Source: Pseudomonadota bacterium (lineage in GTDB: Bacteria; Pseudomonadota; Alphaproteobacteria; Rhizobiales; Pleomorphomonadaceae). From it: a DNA stretch of 64,000 bases. The stretch spans positions 1 to 64,000 of the forward strand of contig JAGSYU010000003.1 of NCBI GenBank assembly GCA_018262575.1, written 5' to 3'. A program made the position numbers and the translations under genes. Within the stretch, counting starts at the first letter, position 1, and the number at the start of each line of letters is the position of its first letter. Shown here piece after piece: positions 4,588-56,471 of the stretch. A model generated the notes under the pieces. The model saw nothing but the letters and a program-made list of their open reading frames with translations, did no database searches and had not been told where the DNA came from.

Positions 4588-6081
4588 ATGTCGGATTATC
4601 TCAAGGCGCGCCTGCCGCGCGGTCTCGTCGATCGGACCCCCGCCGAACTCAAGGCGACCGAGGCCATGATCGAGACCATCCGACATACTTATGAACTCTA
4701 CGGTTTCGAGCCGGTGGAGACGCCGCTCATCGAGTATACCGATGCGCTCGGCAAGTTCCTGCCCGATCAGGATCGGCCGAACGAAGGCGTATTCTCCTTC
4801 CAGGATGATGACGAGCAGTGGCTGTCGCTGCGGTATGACCTGACGGCGCCGCTCGCACGCTTCTATGCCGAGAACCATGAGAAGCTGCCGAAGCCCTATC
4901 GTAGCTACAGAAATGGCTGGGTGTTCCGCAACGAAAAGCCCGGCCCCGGTCGTTTCCGCCAGTTCATGCAGTTCGACGCCGATACGGTCGGCGCGCCGTC
5001 GGTAGCCGCCGATGCCGAGATCTGCATGATGATGGCCGACACCATGGAGGCGCTCGGCCTCAAGGGTCAGTTCGTCGTCCGCGTCAACAACCGCAAGGTG
5101 CTGGACGGGGTGATGGAAGTGATTGGCCTGGCCGGCGACGACAAGGCCTCGGCGCGCCTGACCGTGCTCCGCGCCATCGACAAGCTCGACAAGATCGGCG
5201 CCTCCGGGGTGCGCGACCTGCTCGGTGCCGGCCGCTGGGAGAATCCGGAGGAAAAGTCCGGCGACTTCACCAAGGGGGCCGGTCTTCAGTCCGAGGCGGT
5301 CGACGTGGTGCTGGCCTTCGTGGCTAGCGGCACCGACAGCGCGGCAACGACCGTCGACACTCTCGGCAAGCTGGTCGTCGGCAGTGCTCGGGGCAGCGAG
5401 GGCGTCGAGGAACTGAAGCTGATTGCCAGCCTGGTCGACGCCGCCGGTTATGCCGACCGGGTGAAGATCGATCCGTCGGTGGTGCGCGGGCTCGAATATT
5501 ACACCGGCCCGGTGTTCGAGGCGGAGCTTACCTTTGAAGTAACCGGCGACGATGGCCGGCCGGTGCGCTTCGGCTCGGTGGGCGGCGGCGGCCGCTACGA
5601 CGGGCTGGTTGGCCGCTTCCTGAAGGAACCGGTGCCGGCCACCGGCTTCTCGATTGGCGTCTCCCGCCTGATGGCGGCGCTGCGGACGCTCGGCAAGATG
5701 GGTGCCGACAAGGTCAACGGCCCCGTCTGCGTCCTCGTCATGGATAAGGGACCGGAGGCGCTCGCCGGTTACCAGAAGATGGTGGCCGAGTTGCGGGCCG
5801 CCGGCATCGCCTCCGAGATGTATCTCGGCGCGTCCGGCATGAAGGCGCAGATGAAATACGCCGACCGCCGCAATGCCCCTTGCGTCATTATCGAAGGTTC
5901 GAACGAGCGCGAGGCCGGCATCGTCCAGATCAAGGACCTCGCCCTCGGCAAGGAACTGTCGGCCGGCATCACCGACAACGCAGAATGGCGGGCGGCGCGC
6001 CCGGCCCAGAAGGAAGTCGCCCGCGCCAACCTCGTTGCCGAAGTGAGAGCGATCGTCGAGGCGATCGGAGGCGCCGCATGA
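4588..6081 (+). CDS. hisS: Histidyl-tRNA synthetase
   Basis: [21 protein letters not shown]..., class II aaRS motifs, [12 protein letters not shown]; overlaps hisZ by 4 nt. Confidence 0.95.
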
Positions 6082-7214
6082 CAGACGCCACCCAGATCGC
6101 CCTCGACAGCTTCAAGGCCGCCGGGTTTGCCGTCGTCGACGTGCCGGTGCTGCTGCCGATGGAGGATTTCGTCCGCATCTCCGGTGAGGAATTCCGTCGC
6201 CGCATCTTCGTGACCTCGTCGAACAACGGCCACGACTGGTGCCTCAGGCCGGAGTTCACCATCCCCGTGGTGCGCACCATGCTCAGCGCTGAGCCGGCCG
6301 GTGGCCGCTTCTGCTACTCCGGCCGCGTCTTCCGGAACGGCCGCCCCGGCGAGGCCGACGAGGTGTGGCAGGTGGGCGGCGAGATCCTGGGCGACCACGA
6401 TCCCGTGACGACCGACGCCGCCGCTCTGGCCCATGCCGTGGCGATCACCGCGGCGTGCGGCGTTTCCCGTCAACGCATCGTCGTCGGCGACGTGGCGCTG
6501 TTCTCGGCGCTGCTTGCCGCGCTCGACATTCCGCCGGCCTGGCGAGCCCGCCTCACCGCGCTGTTCGGCGAGCCCGAGAAGATCGCCGACACGCTGGCGC
6601 GCCTTGAGCAGCGCCGTTTCGGCTTTCCCGGCTTTGCCGCCCATGCCGAGATCATCGAGGCGCTGTCCGTATTCCCGGCCGAGAAGGTCGGGCAGCTGTT
6701 CGCCGATATCCTGTCGATTGCCGGCGTGAAGACGGTTGGTGGCCGCACCACCGGCGAGATCGCCGAGCGGGTGCTCGAACAGGCCATGCTCGGCGCCTCC
6801 GACGGGGTGCCGGCCGGGACCATCGCGGCCATCGCCGAGTTCATGTCGATGCAGGACGACAATGGCAGCGACCTGTCCATTGCGGACGGCGTCCTTCGTC
6901 TTGAAGCGCTATCGAGCCGCATCGGCGACCGTGCCCCGTTCCGCGCTGCCGTCGACCGTTTCAAGGCGCGCGTTGCGGCGATTGCCGCGCTCGGCGTCGA
7001 CCTTTCGACGCTGCACTATGCCGCCGGCTTCGGCCGACGCCTCGGCTATTACGACGGCTTCGTGTTCGACATCCACGACGCCAACCGCGTCGAGGTCGGC
7101 CAGGTGAGCGGCGGCGGCCGCTACGATGGCTTGGTCCGCCACTTCAGGGCCGCCGAGGCGGTCAAGGCGGTCGGCTTCGCCGTCTGGCCCGAGCGCTTCC
7201 GGAGGGCGTCATGA
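6078..7214 (+). CDS. hisZ: ATP phosphoribosyltransferase regulatory subunit
   Basis: HisS-like paralogue lacking the anticodon domain, between hisS and hisG with ATGA overlaps on both sides. Confidence 0.9.
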
Positions 7215-44539: not shown

Positions 44540-45943
44540 ATGCCTAGCTATGCCATCCTGCTCGGTCGTCAGCGCCACGTCTTCGAGGATCTCAAGGCCG
44601 TCATGGCGGCCGCCTCACCGGAGAAATCCGGCGATCGGCTGGCCGGCATCGCCGCCGATACCAACGAGCGCCGCGTCGCCGCCCGCTACCTCCTGGCCGA
44701 CATTCCGCTCCGAACCTTTCTCGACGAGCCGCTGATCCCCTACGAGGTCGACGAGGTCACCCGCCTGATTGTCGATAGCCACGACACGGCTGCGTTCTCG
44801 CCGGTCGCCCACATGACGGTCGGCCAGTTCCGTGACTGGCTGCTCTCCTACGAATGCACCACCGCGCAGCTTTCCGCCCTGGCGCCCGGCCTGACGCCGG
44901 AGATGGTCGCCGCCGTTTCCAAGATCATGCGCAACCATGATCTGATCGTCGTCGCCGCCAAAACCAGCGTTGTCACCGGCTTCCGCACCACCATCGGCCT
45001 CAAGGGGCGCCTGTCCAGCCGCCTGCAGCCCAACCACCCGACCGACGATCCCGAGGGCGTTGCCGGCTCGACGCTCGACGGCCTGACCTACGGCGTCGGT
45101 GACGCCGTGATCGGCATCAACCCGGCCGGCGACAATCTCGACGCCTGCATCCGGCTGATGGAGTTGTTCGACCGGCTCCGCCAGCGCTTCGACATCCCCA
45201 TGCAGTCCTGCGTGCTGACGCACGTGACGACATCGATCAAGGCGGTGGAGGCGGGTGCGCCGCTCGATCTCGTCTTCCAGTCGATCGCCGGCACGGAAGC
45301 TGCCAACCGCGGCTTCGGCGTCGACCTCAAGGTGCTGGAGGAGGGGCGCGAGGCGGCGCTCAGCCTGAAGCGCGGCACGGTCGGCGACAATGTCATGTAT
45401 CTCGAAACGGGCCAGGGCTCGGCGCTGTCCGCCGACGCCCACCACGGCGTCGACGAGCAGACCGTCGAAGTGCGCGCCTATGCCGTTGCCCGCCACCTGA
45501 AGCCGCTGATCGTCAACACCGTCGTCGGCTTCATCGGCCCAGAGTATCTCTACGACGCCAAGCAGATCATCCGGGCCGGCCTCGAGGACCACTTCTGCGG
45601 CAAGGTGCTCGGCGTGCCGATGGGCGTCGACGTCTGCTATACCAACCATGCCGAGGCCGACCAGGACGACATGGACAACCTGATGTTCCTGCTCGCCTCG
45701 GCCGGCGTCAACTTCCTGATCGCCGTGCCCGGTGCCGACGACGTCATGCTGAACTACCAGTCATTGAGCTACCACGATATCGTCAGCCTGCGGCATTCCT
45801 TCGGCCGCCCACCGGCGCCTGAGTTCGAGGCCTGGCTCTACCGCATGGGCCTCTTCGACGACGAGGGGCGCCTGGCACCACAGGCGAGTTCCGTCGCCCG
45901 CCGCCTCATCGATTATCGTCCTGACGTCCGAGCCTTGGCATGA
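44540..45943 (+). CDS. eutB: Ethanolamine ammonia-lyase large subunit
   Basis: LTYGVGDAVIGINPAGDNLDACIRLMELFDRLRQRFDIPMQSCVLTHVTTSIKAVEAGAPLDLVFQSIAGTEAANRGFGVDL. Confidence 0.96.
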   Translation: MPSYAILLGRQRHVFEDLKAVMAAASPEKSGDRLAGIAADTNERRVAARYLLADIPLRTFLDEPLIPYEVDEVTRLIVDSHDTAAFSPVAHMTVGQFRDWLLSYECTTAQLSALAPGLTPEMVAAVSKIMRNHDLIVVAAKTSVVTGFRTTIGLKGRLSSRLQPNHPTDDPEGVAGSTLDGLTYGVGDAVIGINPAGDNLDACIRLMELFDRLRQRFDIPMQSCVLTHVTTSIKAVEAGAPLDLVFQSIAGTEAANRGFGVDLKVLEEGREAALSLKRGTVGDNVMYLETGQGSALSADAHHGVDEQTVEVRAYAVARHLKPLIVNTVVGFIGPEYLYDAKQIIRAGLEDHFCGKVLGVPMGVDVCYTNHAEADQDDMDNLMFLLASAGVNFLIAVPGADDVMLNYQSLSYHDIVSLRHSFGRPPAPEFEAWLYRMGLFDDEGRLAPQASSVARRLIDYRPDVRALA

Positions 45944-48250: not shown

Positions 48251-49834
48251 ATGTTTTGCTACCAGTGTGAACAGACCGCCCGCGGCACCGGTTGCGTGAC
48301 CCGCGGCGTCTGCGGCAAGTCGCCGGAGGCCGCCGATCTGCAGGACGTGCTCGTCCATGCCGCCAAACGCCTGGCAACGCGCTACGCCAACGTGCCCGCC
48401 GCCGAGCGGCCGGCGAATCTCGCGCCGATGCTTGAGGATGCGCTGTTCGTCACCGTCACCAACGTCAACTTCGACACCGCTTCGATCCTGAACAAGATCC
48501 GCGAAGTGGTCGCCGCCGCCGGGACTGCCGCCGACGTTGCCGTCGAGGCCCCGGAAGCCGCCCTGGTCTCCTGGTCGCGCGACTCGATGATCGATTCCCG
48601 CAAGGCAAGCCTCGGCGACGACGTCACCGGCTTGCAGGAACTGTTGCTCTACGGCCTCAAGGGTATGGCAGCCTACGCCCATCATGCCCGCCAGATGCAT
48701 CGCACCGACCCCGTCGTCGACGCCTTCACGGTCGAGGCGCTGGCCAAGCTCGACGCCGGTGTCGACACCGTCGACGAACTGCTTGCTCTCAACCTCAAGT
48801 GCGGCGAAGTCACCATCAACGTGCTGGCGCTGCTCGACGCCGCCCATTGCGACACCTACGGCAAGCCGACGCCGACGCCGGTGCTGATGGGCCACGTGCC
48901 GGGCAAGGCGATCCTCGTCTCCGGCCACGACATGGTCGACCTCCAGGCACTGCTCGAGCAGACCGAGGGCAAGGGCATCAACATCTATACCCACGGCGAG
49001 ATGCTGCCGGCCCATGGCTATCCTGAGCTCAAGAAATTCAAGCATCTGGCCGGCCACTTCGGCGGCGCCTGGATGCTGCAGCAGCGGGAGTTCCCGAACT
49101 TCCCCGGCGCCATCCTGATGACCACCAACTGCCTGATGCAGCCGTTCGAGGACTATGAGGGTCGCCTGTTCACGCGCAACCTCGTCGCCTGGCCGGGCAT
49201 CGCCCACATCGATGGCCGCGACTTCTCGGCGGTCATTGAGTCCGCACTGGCCGCTCCCGGCTTCACCGACACCGTCAAGACCGGCGAACATCTGGTCGGC
49301 TTCGGCCATGACGCCGTGCTGGGCGCTGCCGACAAGATCATCGGCGCCGTCAAGGCCGGCGAGATCAAGCACTTCGCCGTCATCGGCGGTTGCGACGGTT
49401 CGGAGGGCGAACGCTCCTACTATACCGATCTTGGCACGACCATTCCCAAGGATTGGGTGATCCTGACGCTTGGTTGCGGCAAGTACCGCCTGCTCGGCCA
49501 TGACTATGGCACGGTTGCCGGCCTGCCGCGCCTCCTCGACATGGGCCAGTGCAACGACAGCTTCTCGGCCGTCAAGGTGGCGCTGGCGCTCGCCGACGCT
49601 TTCGGCTGCACCGTCAACGAGCTGCCGCTGTCCATCGTGCTGTCGTGGTTCGAGCAGAAGGCGGTCTGCGTTCTGCTCGCCCTCCTGCACCTCAACGTCA
49701 AGAACATCCGCATTGGGCCGCGCCTGCCTGCCTTCCTGACGCCAGCCGTCCTGAAGGTGCTGGTCGACACCTTCGGTCTCAAGCCGGTGGGCGATGTGGA
49801 TGCCGACCTCCAGGCGATGGCCAACGCCGCCTGA
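48251..49834 (+). CDS. hcp: Hybrid-cluster protein (hydroxylamine reductase)
   Basis: MFCYQCEQTARGTGCVTRGVCGKSPE (CX2CX8CX5C), GHDMVDLQALLEQTEGKGINIYTHGEMLPAHGYPELKKF. Confidence 0.96.
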   Translation: MFCYQCEQTARGTGCVTRGVCGKSPEAADLQDVLVHAAKRLATRYANVPAAERPANLAPMLEDALFVTVTNVNFDTASILNKIREVVAAAGTAADVAVEAPEAALVSWSRDSMIDSRKASLGDDVTGLQELLLYGLKGMAAYAHHARQMHRTDPVVDAFTVEALAKLDAGVDTVDELLALNLKCGEVTINVLALLDAAHCDTYGKPTPTPVLMGHVPGKAILVSGHDMVDLQALLEQTEGKGINIYTHGEMLPAHGYPELKKFKHLAGHFGGAWMLQQREFPNFPGAILMTTNCLMQPFEDYEGRLFTRNLVAWPGIAHIDGRDFSAVIESALAAPGFTDTVKTGEHLVGFGHDAVLGAADKIIGAVKAGEIKHFAVIGGCDGSEGERSYYTDLGTTIPKDWVILTLGCGKYRLLGHDYGTVAGLPRLLDMGQCNDSFSAVKVALALADAFGCTVNELPLSIVLSWFEQKAVCVLLALLHLNVKNIRIGPRLPAFLTPAVLKVLVDTFGLKPVGDVDADLQAMANAA

Positions 49835-50369: not shown

Positions 50370-51416
50370 ATGAGCACTGCAGCCCTTCTGAAAGAGATCT
50401 CCGACGGAGACGTTTTCGACCGAGCCGCCGTCAAGGCGCTGTTCGACCTGCCGCGCGAAGACCTGTTTGCCCGCGCCGATGCGGTGCGCAAGGACAACAT
50501 GGGCGACGAGGTGTTCCTGCGCGGCATCGTCGAGTTCTCCAATGTCTGCGCCAACGACTGTCTGTATTGCGGCATCCGCAAATCCAACCACGACGTGCGC
50601 CGCTATCGCATCGAGGAAGAGGAAATCCTCGAGGTGGCTCACCGCATGGAGGGCTGGCAGCAGACCACCATCGTGCTGCAGTCGGGCGAAGTGGCGGCCG
50701 ACAAGGAGGATGAGCGCATCGAGCGCATTATCCGCCGGATCAAGACGGAAACGCGGCTGGCGGTGACGATGAGCGCCGGCAACCGGCCGCATGACACCTA
50801 CGCCCGCTGGCGGGCGGCCGGCATGGACCGCTACCTGCTGCGCTTTGAAACATCCGATCCCGATCTTTTCGCCTTCCTGCATCCGGACTGCGACCTTGAG
50901 GAACGCATCGGCTGCCTCAAGGACCTGCGCGGCCTCGGCGTGCAGGTCGGCTCCGGTTTCATGATCGGCGTGCCGGGTGAGACGTCGGACATCCTCGCCG
51001 ACAACATCCTGCTGTGCCGCGACCTCGACCTCGACATGATCGGCATCGGGCCGTTCATCGCCCATCCGGACACGCCGCTCGCCGGACAGGCCAACGCCTA
51101 TGCCGGCGACACCGACATGTTCTTCGCTGCCGTGGCGGCGCTGCGTATCGTCAATCCGAAGGCGCACATCCCGGCAACGACGGCCTTCGACGCCATCTTC
51201 CCGCACGCCGGCCGCGATCTCGTCCTGCAGCGCGGCGCCAATGTGTTCATGCCCAACGCCACGCCCGGCCGCTTCCGCAAGAACTACATGCTCTACCCGG
51301 ACAAGCCCTGCGTCGACGAGGACGACCACCAGTGCTCGGGCTGCGCCGCCGCCCGCGTCTGGTCGATCGGTCGGGTAATCGGCCAGGGGCCGGGGCATTC
51401 GATCAAGGTCAGGTGA
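50370..51416 (+). CDS. hydE: [FeFe]-hydrogenase H-cluster radical SAM maturase HydE
   Basis: FSNVCANDCLYCGIRKSN (CX3CX2C), LQSGEVAADKEDERIERIIRRIKTETRLAVTMSAGNR, FMIGVPGETSDILADNILLCRDLDLDMIGIGPFIAHPDTPL. Confidence 0.95.
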   Translation: MSTAALLKEISDGDVFDRAAVKALFDLPREDLFARADAVRKDNMGDEVFLRGIVEFSNVCANDCLYCGIRKSNHDVRRYRIEEEEILEVAHRMEGWQQTTIVLQSGEVAADKEDERIERIIRRIKTETRLAVTMSAGNRPHDTYARWRAAGMDRYLLRFETSDPDLFAFLHPDCDLEERIGCLKDLRGLGVQVGSGFMIGVPGETSDILADNILLCRDLDLDMIGIGPFIAHPDTPLAGQANAYAGDTDMFFAAVAALRIVNPKAHIPATTAFDAIFPHAGRDLVLQRGANVFMPNATPGRFRKNYMLYPDKPCVDEDDHQCSGCAAARVWSIGRVIGQGPGHSIKVR

Positions 51417-51484
51417 TCGCTGTTCTCTCTGCCGGGCTGCATAGATCCTTCTATATTTCCGGTTAGAGAAAGCCGGAGAGCCCT

Positions 51485-51580
51485 ATGAGCAGTTCCGCCC
51501 AGACCCGCGCCGTCAGGACCGATTGCCGCCGCCTTGCCGACAAGGAGCTGGACATCTTCAACCCCATCCGCGCGAGTTGA
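51485..51580 (+). CDS. Possible 31-aa ORF or gene remnant between convergent hydE and hydF
   Basis: MSSSAQTRAVRTDCRRLADKELDIFNPIRAS*, preceded by GCCGGAGAG SD-like sequence. Confidence 0.25.
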   Translation: MSSSAQTRAVRTDCRRLADKELDIFNPIRAS

Positions 51581-51616
51581 GGTAGCCGATCGGAAGCCCC
51601 ACGGTGCTGCAGGTCA

Positions 51617-52852
51617 TCAACTGGCGTCGGCGTTGGCCCGCTCGAAGGCGATCCGCGCCGAGGGGAAGGGGCCGAGCGACCGGTGGAGGACGCCCTGCAC
51701 GCGGCTGATGGCGACACCGTAGTTGGTGATCGGCACGCCCTGCCGCTCTGCCTGACGGATGCGAAGCAGCACCTGCTTGCGATTGACGGTGCAGGCGCCG
51801 CACTGAACGACGAGAGCATAGGGGCTGAGATCATCGGGGAAGGCGCGGCCGGCCATCGTCTCAAATTCGATATCGCCGCCGGCATACTGGCGGAACCAGC
51901 GGGGGATTTTCACCCGGCCGATATCGTCGGCCATGGAATGATGGGTGCAGGCCTCGGCGATCAGCACCTTGTCGCCGGGCTTCAATCGATCGATCCGCGC
52001 CGCACCTTCGGCGAGGCGGACAAGGTCGCCCTTGAAGCGGGCCATCAGGATCGAGAAGGTGGTGAGCGGCACGTCGTCCGGCGTGTCGGCCGCCGCCTTC
52101 AGCACGATCTGGCTGTCGCAGACCACGAGGTCGGGCTTTCTGCCAAGCGACTTCAGCGTTGACGCCAGTTCGCGCTCCTTGACCACCGTGCAACTGGCGT
52201 CGGCGTCGAGAATGTCGCGGATGGCCATCACCTGCGGCAGGATCAACCGTCCCTTGGGGGCGGAGAGATCGATCGGCACCACCAGCACCACGTGGCCGCC
52301 GGCCGGCACCAGATCGGCGAGGAGATGCGGCACCTCGAAGGAGCTTTCCGGCGCCGCCTCCAGGATGAGTTCGCGCACGCGGGCGGCGTCCGCCTTTATC
52401 GCCGTCGAGATCGAGGCGAAGGGAACATCGCGAGCCCTGACCGCCGCCAGCGCCTCGGCCGGCGGGGCGGCAAGATCGGCCTTGGTGAAGACGACGCAAT
52501 AGGGCGTCTCGCGGTCGGCGAGCGCATCCATCAGCTTCACTTCGTCGTCGCCGATCGGCCCCTCGGTAACGATGATGCCGAGGTCGGTATGGTCGAGCGC
52601 CTTGAGAGTCTTCTCGACGCGCATCCCGCCGAGATCGCCGACGTCGTCAATGCCGGCGGTGTCGACGAACAGGACCGGCCCGATCGGCAGCAGCTCCATC
52701 GCCTTCTCGACCGGGTCGGTCGTGGTGCCGGCGACGTCGGAAACGATCGATACGTCCTGCCCGAGCAACAGGTTGACCAACGACGACTTGCCAACGTTGC
52801 GGCGGCCATAGACGCCGATGTGCAGGCGAAGACCTTTTGGCGTGGCAAGCAT
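51617..52852 (-). CDS. hydF: [FeFe]-hydrogenase H-cluster maturation GTPase HydF
   Basis: HIGVYGRRNVGKSSLVNLLLGQDVSIVSDVAGTTTDPVEKAMELLPIGPVLFVDTAGIDD; C-terminal EACTHH...QCGAC cluster-binding region. Confidence 0.95.
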   Translation of the reverse strand: MLATPKGLRLHIGVYGRRNVGKSSLVNLLLGQDVSIVSDVAGTTTDPVEKAMELLPIGPVLFVDTAGIDDVGDLGGMRVEKTLKALDHTDLGIIVTEGPIGDDEVKLMDALADRETPYCVVFTKADLAAPPAEALAAVRARDVPFASISTAIKADAARVRELILEAAPESSFEVPHLLADLVPAGGHVVLVVPIDLSAPKGRLILPQVMAIRDILDADASCTVVKERELASTLKSLGRKPDLVVCDSQIVLKAAADTPDDVPLTTFSILMARFKGDLVRLAEGAARIDRLKPGDKVLIAEACTHHSMADDIGRVKIPRWFRQYAGGDIEFETMAGRAFPDDLSPYALVVQCGACTVNRKQVLLRIRQAERQGVPITNYGVAISRVQGVLHRSLGPFPSARIAFERANADAS

Positions 52853-52866
52853 GGTCTGGTCCTTGT

Positions 52867-54258
52867 CTATTTCGTACCGAGGGCTGTCATGGCATTGGCG
52901 GAGAGCAGGCGATCGAGCTCGGCGGGCTCGATCAGCTTGCGGTCGAGGACGATCTCGATCACCGATCGACCACTGTCGCGCGCCGCCGTCGCCACCTCGG
53001 TCGCCGTCTCATAGCCGAGACGCGGCAGCAACGCCGTAACGACGGCACGGCTCTCGCCGACCTGTCGACGGCAGGCCGCCTCATCGACGGACAGGCCCTC
53101 GACGCAGCGCGTCCGGAAGATGGTCGCGGCGGCCTCGAGCAGGCTGATACTGTCGAGCAGGGCGTCGGCCAGCAGCGGCAGGAAGGCGTTGAGCTCGAGT
53201 TGGCCGTTTTGCGCGGCGAGCGTCACCATCTGGTCGTTGCCCATCACCCGCATTGCCGCCTGCCCCACCGCCTCCGGGATCACCGGATTGACCTTGCCGG
53301 GCATGATCGACGAGCCGGCCTGCACAGCCGGTAGCCGGATTTCGCCGAAGCCGGCCTGCGGGCCTGACGACAGCAGGCGAAGATCAGAGGAAATCTTGAA
53401 CAGGTTGACGGCGTTGGCTTTCAGAATGCCCGACACCTCGACGAAGGCATCGGCGTTCTGGGTGGCATCGACGAGGTTGTCGGCCCGGGCAAGGCCGAGG
53501 CCGGTCACCTCGCGCAACACCTCGGTGACCATGAAGACATAGTCGCGCGGCGCGGCGATGGCGGTGCCGACGGCGGTGCCGCCGAGGTTGACGACGCGCA
53601 ACCGCTCCTCGCACTTGAAGACGCGCCAGCGGTCGCGCGACAACGCTTCGGCCCAGGCCGAAAACACCGCGCCGTAGGCGATCGGACAGGCGTCCTGCAA
53701 CTCGGTGCGGGCGATCTTGACGACGCCGGACCACGTCCGCTCCTTCTCCTGGAAGGCGACCTGCAGGTCGGCAATGGCCTTTTCCAAGCGGTGCAGCAGG
53801 CGAATGGCGGCGATCTTCAGCGCCGTAGGAAACGTGTCGTTGGTCGACTGGTTGAGGTTGACCTGATCGTTGGGATGAACGCGGGCATGCTGACCACGCC
53901 GGCCGCCGAGCAGTTCCTCGGCGCGGTTGGCGATCACCTCGTTGACGTTCATGTTGAGCGACGTGCCGGCACCGCCTTGCAGCGCATCGACGTCGATCTC
54001 GGATAACAGCGTGCCGTCCTCGATCTCGCGGGCGGCGCGCAGGATCGCCTCCGCCACCTCGTCGGTGAGAAAACCGAGACGATGATTGGTGCGGGCGGCA
54101 GCGATCTTCACCGCCGCGTAGGCGCGGACGAGTTCGGGATGCACCGGCCGGCCGGCGAGCGGAAAGTTTTCGCGCGCCCGCGCCGTGTGGATGCCCGACA
54201 GGGCGTCCGCCGGGATGTCACGCTCGCCGATCAGGTCGGTCTCGCGCCGCGTCGCCAT
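52867..54258 (-). CDS. aspA: Aspartate ammonia-lyase-like protein
   Basis: GGAGTSLNMNVNEVIANRAEELLGG, VHPNDQVNLNQSTNDTFPTALKIA, GSSIMPGKVNPVIPEAVGQ; embedded between hydF and hydG. Confidence 0.93.
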   Translation of the reverse strand: MATRRETDLIGERDIPADALSGIHTARARENFPLAGRPVHPELVRAYAAVKIAAARTNHRLGFLTDEVAEAILRAAREIEDGTLLSEIDVDALQGGAGTSLNMNVNEVIANRAEELLGGRRGQHARVHPNDQVNLNQSTNDTFPTALKIAAIRLLHRLEKAIADLQVAFQEKERTWSGVVKIARTELQDACPIAYGAVFSAWAEALSRDRWRVFKCEERLRVVNLGGTAVGTAIAAPRDYVFMVTEVLREVTGLGLARADNLVDATQNADAFVEVSGILKANAVNLFKISSDLRLLSSGPQAGFGEIRLPAVQAGSSIMPGKVNPVIPEAVGQAAMRVMGNDQMVTLAAQNGQLELNAFLPLLADALLDSISLLEAAATIFRTRCVEGLSVDEAACRRQVGESRAVVTALLPRLGYETATEVATAARDSGRSVIEIVLDRKLIEPAELDRLLSANAMTALGTK

Positions 54259-54281
54259 CCTTTACCTCCGGCGACACCGCG

Positions 54282-55682
54282 TCAGCGGTAAACGTCGCGC
54301 TTGCCCTCACGCACCTTGCGCATCATCGTCTCGGAATAGCGGGCGATCTTCGGTTCCATGGTGGCGACCTCGGCGGCCACCGCCTTCTCGCCGGCCGCGC
54401 AGGTGTCCTCGGAACCGTAGTCGATCATGTATTCCATAAACGACGACAAGGCATTCGGCCCGCACATTTCGCGGATAAGGCCTGGCTTTGCAAGGTCCAT
54501 GAAGTCGGCACCGGTACGGCCCATGCGATAGCAGGCGGTGCAGAAGGACGGCACGCAGCCGCTGGCGGCGATGTCGCGCACCACTTCGTCGAGCGGGCGG
54601 TGGTCGCCGCGGGTGAACTGGGCGGCCTGCTCCTCGACCGGCGTGGCGTAGCCACCGGGATTGGTACGGCTACCGCCGGAGATCTGCGACACGCCGAGCC
54701 GGAAGGCATCGCGGCGCATTTCCGGGTTCTCGCGCGTCGACAGGATGATGCCGGTGTACGGCACGGCGAGGCGCAGGATGGCAATGATCTTCTTGAAATC
54801 GGTATCGGACACGGCATGGGGCGGCGCCATCGACACGTCGGAGCCGAAGGCCGGCTCCATGCGCGGCACCGAAAGGGTGTGCGGACCGACGCCAAAGGCG
54901 TCCTCCAGATGGGCGATGTGCTGCATGGTGGCCAGCACCTCGAAGCGCCAGTCGTGCAGCCCGAACAGCGGACCGATGCCGACGTCGTCGATACCGGCCG
55001 CCATGGCGCGGTCCATCACCGACACGCGCCAGTCGAAGTCGGCCTTGGCGCCCGACGGATGCATCGCCTCGTAGACCTTGCGGTTGTAGGTCTCCTGGAA
55101 CAGTTGGTAGGTGCCGATGCCGGTTTCCTTCAGGCGACGGAATTCATCGGTTTCCAGCGGGGCGACGTTGACGTTGATGCGGCGGATCTCGCCGCGGCCG
55201 CGCTTGACCGAATAGATGCGCTCGATGGCATCGACGAGATACTGGAAGCCGGTCTTGGGGAAGGCTTCGCCGCCGATCAGCAGCAGGCGCTTGTGGCCCT
55301 GGTCGATCAGCGCAGCCGTCTCCGCCTCGATCTCCTCCATGGTCAGGATCTTGCGATCGAGTTCCGTGTTGGACCGGCGGAAGGCGCAGTAGACGCATTC
55401 GTTGAGGCAAATGTTGGAGAAATAGAGCGGCGCGAACAGGACGATGCGCGGGCCGTAGATTTCCGTCTTCACCTTCTCGGCGGTGTGGAACAACTCGGCC
55501 ATCAGGTCGGGATCGGTGACGGCGCAGAGAACGGCAACGTCGTCTTCCGACAGGCCGCCGAGCGTCGCCGCCTTGTCGAGGATCTCGCGCACCCGCAACC
55601 GGTCGGCGCCAGCGGTGGTGGCGGCGATCTCCGCCTCGATGCGGGTTTCGTCGAGCCAGGTGATCCGTTCGGTCTTCGTCAT
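54282..55682 (-). CDS. hydG: [FeFe]-hydrogenase H-cluster radical SAM maturase HydG
   Basis: FSNICLNECVYCAFRRSNTELDRKILTMEEIEAE (CX3CX2C) and C-terminal CTACYRMGRTGADFMDLAKPGLIREMC (CX2CX22C). Confidence 0.96.
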   Translation of the reverse strand: MTKTERITWLDETRIEAEIAATTAGADRLRVREILDKAATLGGLSEDDVAVLCAVTDPDLMAELFHTAEKVKTEIYGPRIVLFAPLYFSNICLNECVYCAFRRSNTELDRKILTMEEIEAETAALIDQGHKRLLLIGGEAFPKTGFQYLVDAIERIYSVKRGRGEIRRINVNVAPLETDEFRRLKETGIGTYQLFQETYNRKVYEAMHPSGAKADFDWRVSVMDRAMAAGIDDVGIGPLFGLHDWRFEVLATMQHIAHLEDAFGVGPHTLSVPRMEPAFGSDVSMAPPHAVSDTDFKKIIAILRLAVPYTGIILSTRENPEMRRDAFRLGVSQISGGSRTNPGGYATPVEEQAAQFTRGDHRPLDEVVRDIAASGCVPSFCTACYRMGRTGADFMDLAKPGLIREMCGPNALSSFMEYMIDYGSEDTCAAGEKAVAAEVATMEPKIARYSETMMRKVREGKRDVYR

Positions 55683-55925: not shown

Positions 55926-56471
55926 ATGAACGAAAGGGACAACGAAGCCTTGTCCGGCAGCGCGGCGCGCCGGGAGAATGGCCTCCGCGACCGGGGCCGC
56001 CTCCGGGACGTGTCCCGTTCGCTGCCGATCGCCCTTTTGAGGACACGGGAAGCGGTGATGCGGCAGTTCCGACCGGTGCTCAGGTCGGTTGACCTTACCG
56101 AGCAGCAGTGGCGGGTGCTGCGGGCGCTCGATTCGGTGCCGGAAATCGACGCGACAGGCCTTGCGATGGCGACCTTCCTGTTGCCTCCGTCGCTGTCGCG
56201 CATCCTCCGCGATCTCGAGGGGCGGCAACTGATCAGCCGGCGTCCCGATCCCGCCGACCTCCGGGCCTGGCTAATCTCGCTGACACCCGAAGGACGGAAA
56301 ACCATCGACGCGGCGGGAGTCTGGGCCGAGACTGTCTATGCGGCGATGACGGCCCGGATCGGCCAGGAACGCCTCGACACGCTGATGCAGCTCTTGCGAG
56401 ATATCGAGCAGGACCTTGATGTGCCGCTCACCGGCCACGGCGGCGTGGCGTCTGACCCACGCGCCGAGTAA
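55926..56471 (+). CDS. MarR-family regulator, HpaR-like
   Basis: LRSVDLTEQQWRVLRALDSVPEIDATGLAMATFLLPPSLSRILRDLEGRQLISRRPDPADLR. Confidence 0.85.
   Translation: MNERDNEALSGSAARRENGLRDRGRLRDVSRSLPIALLRTREAVMRQFRPVLRSVDLTEQQWRVLRALDSVPEIDATGLAMATFLLPPSLSRILRDLEGRQLISRRPDPADLRAWLISLTPEGRKTIDAAGVWAETVYAAMTARIGQERLDTLMQLLRDIEQDLDVPLTGHGGVASDPRAE

Follow-up and report, generated by a model that had tools for sequence, protein, structure and literature searches.

An ordinary [FeFe]-hydrogenase maturation locus whose client hydrogenases very probably lie elsewhere on the chromosome of a Pleomorphomonas-type alphaproteobacterium

Introduction

Which enzyme is served by a set of [FeFe]-hydrogenase maturases that has no hydrogenase gene beside it? 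The question is raised by a 64-kb stretch of DNA (hereafter the window; bases 1-64000 of contig C265, which has 75,479 bases) from the draft genome of a Pleomorphomonas-type alphaproteobacterium. The source assembly comprises 295 contigs and 4.40 Mb, and is estimated to be 86% complete, with a contamination estimate of 3.95%. An earlier note on this DNA had placed intact hydE, hydG, aspA and hydF genes at 50370-55682, had pointed out that no HydA-like gene accompanies them in the 64 kb, and had proposed that the client lay elsewhere or was an unrecognised enzyme. The order in which HydG, HydE and HydF act in maturation is established (summarised in PMC11736057). Aspartate plus AspA can provide the bridge nitrogen in vitro, supporting maturation, and aspA is often found at most 10 genes from hydF (Pagnier et al. 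2024, PMC11736057).

Results

The maturation genes of the window

Five genes of the region are referred to below:

48251-49834, + strand: hcp, hybrid-cluster protein (hydroxylamine reductase), upstream of hydE (TIGR01703)
50370-51416, + strand: hydE, 348 aa, [FeFe]-hydrogenase H-cluster radical SAM maturase (TIGR03956, motifs)
51617-52852, - strand: hydF, 411 aa, H-cluster maturation GTPase/scaffold (TIGR03918, motifs)
52867-54258, - strand: aspA, 463 aa, aspartate ammonia-lyase between hydG and hydF (PRK12273, signature)
54282-55682, - strand: hydG, 466 aa, H-cluster radical SAM maturase (tyrosine lyase) (TIGR03955, motifs)

Proteins were assigned to families using NCBIfam models with curated cut-offs. 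HydE scored 302.8 bits (TIGR03956, cut-off 254.6), HydG 511.2 bits (TIGR03955, cut-off 312.15) and HydF 535.9 bits (TIGR03918, cut-off 325.55). The expected motifs were found in all three: the radical-SAM CX3CX2C at residue 60 and CX7CX2C at 314 in HydE; the radical-SAM CX3CX2C at 92 and the auxiliary CX2CX22C at 381 in HydG; and the P-loop GRRNVGKS at 16, TKAD at 123 and the C-terminal cysteine motifs CTH at 302 and CGAC at 351 in HydF. The HydEFG set is complete, and the genome also encodes a HydA client (see below). AspA scored 619.7 bits with PRK12273 (cut-off 510), which identifies it as an aspartate ammonia-lyase, and its sequence GSSIMPGKVNP matches the signature GSSxMPxKxNP; with the narrower model TIGR00839 it remained below the cut-off (510.4 versus 681.2). 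The positions and intactness of the four genes, and the maturase motifs that the earlier note had listed, were thus confirmed by family scores and motif positions.

The hcp gene (TIGR01703, 701.1 bits; cut-off 360.8) immediately precedes hydE, as it also does in the congeneric genomes G012, G002 and G013; it is a conserved neighbour that stands outside the maturation machinery. On the other side, a gene for a MarR-family regulator (55926-56471) is divergent from hydG and scored 137.8 bits with the HpaR model (cut-off 121.2). The window was also searched for FNR-type sites (TTGATNNNNATCAA, one mismatch allowed); a single match was obtained, at 45107, against a chance expectation of 0.89, and none near hydE or hydG.

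HydA in the window and in the rest of the assembly

A six-frame scan of the 64-kb window for T[SA]CCP, MPCxxK and [MA]CxGGC rendered zero matches, and the claim that it contains no HydA-like open reading frame therefore holds. When the whole assembly was searched with the Pfam H-cluster domain, as the earlier note had proposed for the rest of the genome, one full HydA was found (E = 1.2e-89; domain match at G000:C290:905-1759) on another contig, C290, of 5,870 bases. This protein, HydA1, has 616 aa, contains TSCCP, MPCTAK and MACPGGC as well as the small-subunit domain, and scored 521.6 bits with the group A model TIGR02512 (cut-off 405.95); judged by its sequence, it is a canonical group A [FeFe]-hydrogenase. 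With the model for group A6, the NADH-dependent enzymes (NF040763), it scored 737.9 bits, under the cut-off of 765.

The gene upstream of hydA1 encodes a partner protein which in G012 has 698 aa, most of its length matching GltD-type NAD(P)H oxidoreductases. HydDB defines group A2 by a GltD-type neighbour without NuoF; HydA1 may belong to this subgroup, although part of the N-terminal region of its partner also aligns weakly with a NuoF-like protein (C227). The start of contig C290 falls within the last 55 codons of the partner gene, whose first 33 codons are present at the end of contig C206; the location of these pieces at contig edges indicates that the assembly broke within the hydA1 operon.

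A second hydrogenase operon

Two strong full HydA genes were found in 11 of the 13 congeners; in G007 a single HydA is accompanied by a far more divergent homologue, and in G011 by a fragment at a contig end. In G012 the second hydrogenase is encoded by a hydA-hydB-nuoE trimer operon, and its HydA2 passes the group A6 model NF040763 (786.2 bits; cut-off 765). Beside this operon lie two PLP-enzyme-like genes (L119:4124-5752 and 5703-7040), possible ammonia-lyases, for which no NCBIfam match was obtained at E 1e-30.

In the five congeners that have both loci on one contig, the hydA2 operon is located past the hydG end of the maturase locus, at a distance from hydG of ∼44 kb in G002, 58 kb in G012 and 67-70 kb in G005, G006 and G013. 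Contig C265 aligns with G012 along its length, and with G002 and G013 from hcp onward. Its end corresponds to positions 5,022,927 (G012), 239,397 (G002) and 1,050,775 (G013), from which 28, 23 and 49 kb, respectively, are still to go before hydA2 is reached.

In the assembly under study, part of this operon is present on contig C41, which carries nuoE2 together with the first 102 codons of hydB2 and stops inside the latter; hydA2 itself is absent from the 295 contigs (86% complete). Farther along, C41 has the same chemotaxis-receptor gene that follows in G012, with other genes in between. These genes (L175, on C41, 2428-7445, from nuoE2 to the chemotaxis-receptor gene) resemble, on visual inspection, an arsenic-resistance set, with a permease, an ArsR-type regulator with a phosphatase, an Acr3-type transporter and an ArsC-type reductase; the set is missing from the same place in G012. 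The HydB2 start and NuoE2 of C41 are 81-83% identical to those of G012, while the values between G012 and G002, G010 or G013 are 93-98%; the NuoE2 proteins of G004 and G008 are equally distant (81-82%). Given this identity and the contamination estimate, a contaminating congener may be the source of C41.

Conservation in the genus and in the class

Each of the 14 genomes of the genus has hydG, with aspA adjoining it every time, and at least one full HydA was encoded by each of the 13 congeners. In G012, G002 and G013, in which a wider region was read, the order hcp, hydE and the convergent hydF-aspA-hydG is identical, so the comparison of synteny among related genomes that had been suggested showed the arrangement to be kept. 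Maturases apart from their hydrogenases are in fact a constant of the Pleomorphomonas-type genomes read, and the absence of hydA from the window is not remarkable.

In the class as a whole, HydG above the cut-off was found in 12 of 385 sampled alphaproteobacterial genomes, that of the window included. The description of [FeFe] systems as uncommon among Alphaproteobacteria is therefore correct class-wide, while within this genus they are universal. Orphan maturases as a wider alphaproteobacterial pattern were also considered and rejected: HydA was present in all 12 further HydG-bearing genomes (11 above the cut-off plus G041, in which hydG is split). In other bacteria, related maturases lie directly beside a hydA of this type (L023, L024, L047, L058, L060, L063, L067, L069 and others).

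The HydE of the genus groups with a subset of sequences (L132, L150, L058, L044 and L048), among which identities are 57-77%. Against the HydE of a further group of bacteria, those that mostly share 50-67% identity with the genus in HydF and AspA, it reaches only 38-49%. From these comparisons, hydE seems to have followed its own evolutionary course, as would be consistent with its being a separate transcription unit.

Discussion

The data point almost with certainty to an ordinary [FeFe]-hydrogenase maturation locus, the clients of which are conventional group-A hydrogenases encoded elsewhere on the chromosome. The client appeared to be missing because a single window of a fragmented 295-contig, 86%-complete assembly was considered. 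Of the two possibilities raised in the earlier note, that of a client elsewhere was borne out by the HydA on C290 and the partial hydABC operon on C41, while that of an unrecognised client found no support. The note had added that a hydA immediately outside the window would make this an ordinary dispersed hyd locus; hydA does not lie there, but it is in the genome, and the locus is thus of that kind.

Two other explanations have to be weighed. If C290 were a contaminant, the strain would have maturases without a hydrogenase, an idea favoured by the fragmentation of the assembly, its contamination estimate of 3.95% and the small size of the contig (merely 5.9 kb). However, the nearest relatives of HydA1 are from Pleomorphomonas and mostly 94-97% identical to it, C290 shares with G012 the fabF-like neighbour of hydA1, its G+C content matches (65.0% versus 65.4%), the absent parts of the partner gene were located at contig edges, and HydA occurs in 13 of 13 congeners. 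Contamination was rejected as the source of C290, which very probably belongs to this genome although it is short; that the strain lacks a hydrogenase is very improbable. Even less credible is the idea that the maturases serve an unrecognised client carrying an H-cluster-like cofactor: the one point in its favour is the lack of hydA in the window, against which stand the canonical HydA of the same assembly, those of every congener, and those of every HydG-bearing alphaproteobacterium tested. That the maturases of the genus might additionally serve some further unrecognised enzyme is likewise extremely unlikely, since nothing found points there.

For an ordinary maturation locus with group-A clients, what is known of these protein families predicts the following activities. 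HydG would convert tyrosine into an Fe(CO)2CN unit, HydE would process this unit, and HydF, as a GTPase scaffold, would finish the [2Fe] subcluster, dithiomethylamine bridge included. The position of aspA suggests that in this organism AspA may supply the ammonia for the bridge nitrogen. One predicted recipient would be HydA1 with its GltD-like NAD(P)H subunit; the other would most likely be a HydABC trimer.

These results remove a false lead, in that maturases without hydA in one window of a fragmented assembly do not amount to an orphan maturation system. They also provide a further instance of aspA inside a hyd cluster, which agrees with the supply of ammonia for the H-cluster bridge that has been proposed. 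The system itself is already known, the maturase set having been recorded for the genus in 2016 and aspA in hyd operons in 2024. A Pleomorphomonas-like isolate has been reported to convert CO into H2 and CO2, the responsible hydrogenase not being assigned there (PMC5603099). For Pleomorphomonas oryzae, HydE (WP_051228492), HydF (WP_026790854), HydG (WP_026790852) and two hydrogenases (HymC) were listed in 2016 (PMC4967309, Table 1). By relatedness, the present genome is of the same genus and, like P. oryzae, has a full maturase set and group-A (M3, HymC-type) hydrogenases; the species is another, and no functional difference was seen. With the aspA-containing hyd operons of Pagnier et al. (2024, PMC11736057) the locus shares the presence inside the maturase cluster of aspA, the proposed source of ammonia for dithiomethylamine; it differs from them in that hydE is transcribed separately, in convergent orientation, and that the hydrogenase genes lie far away.
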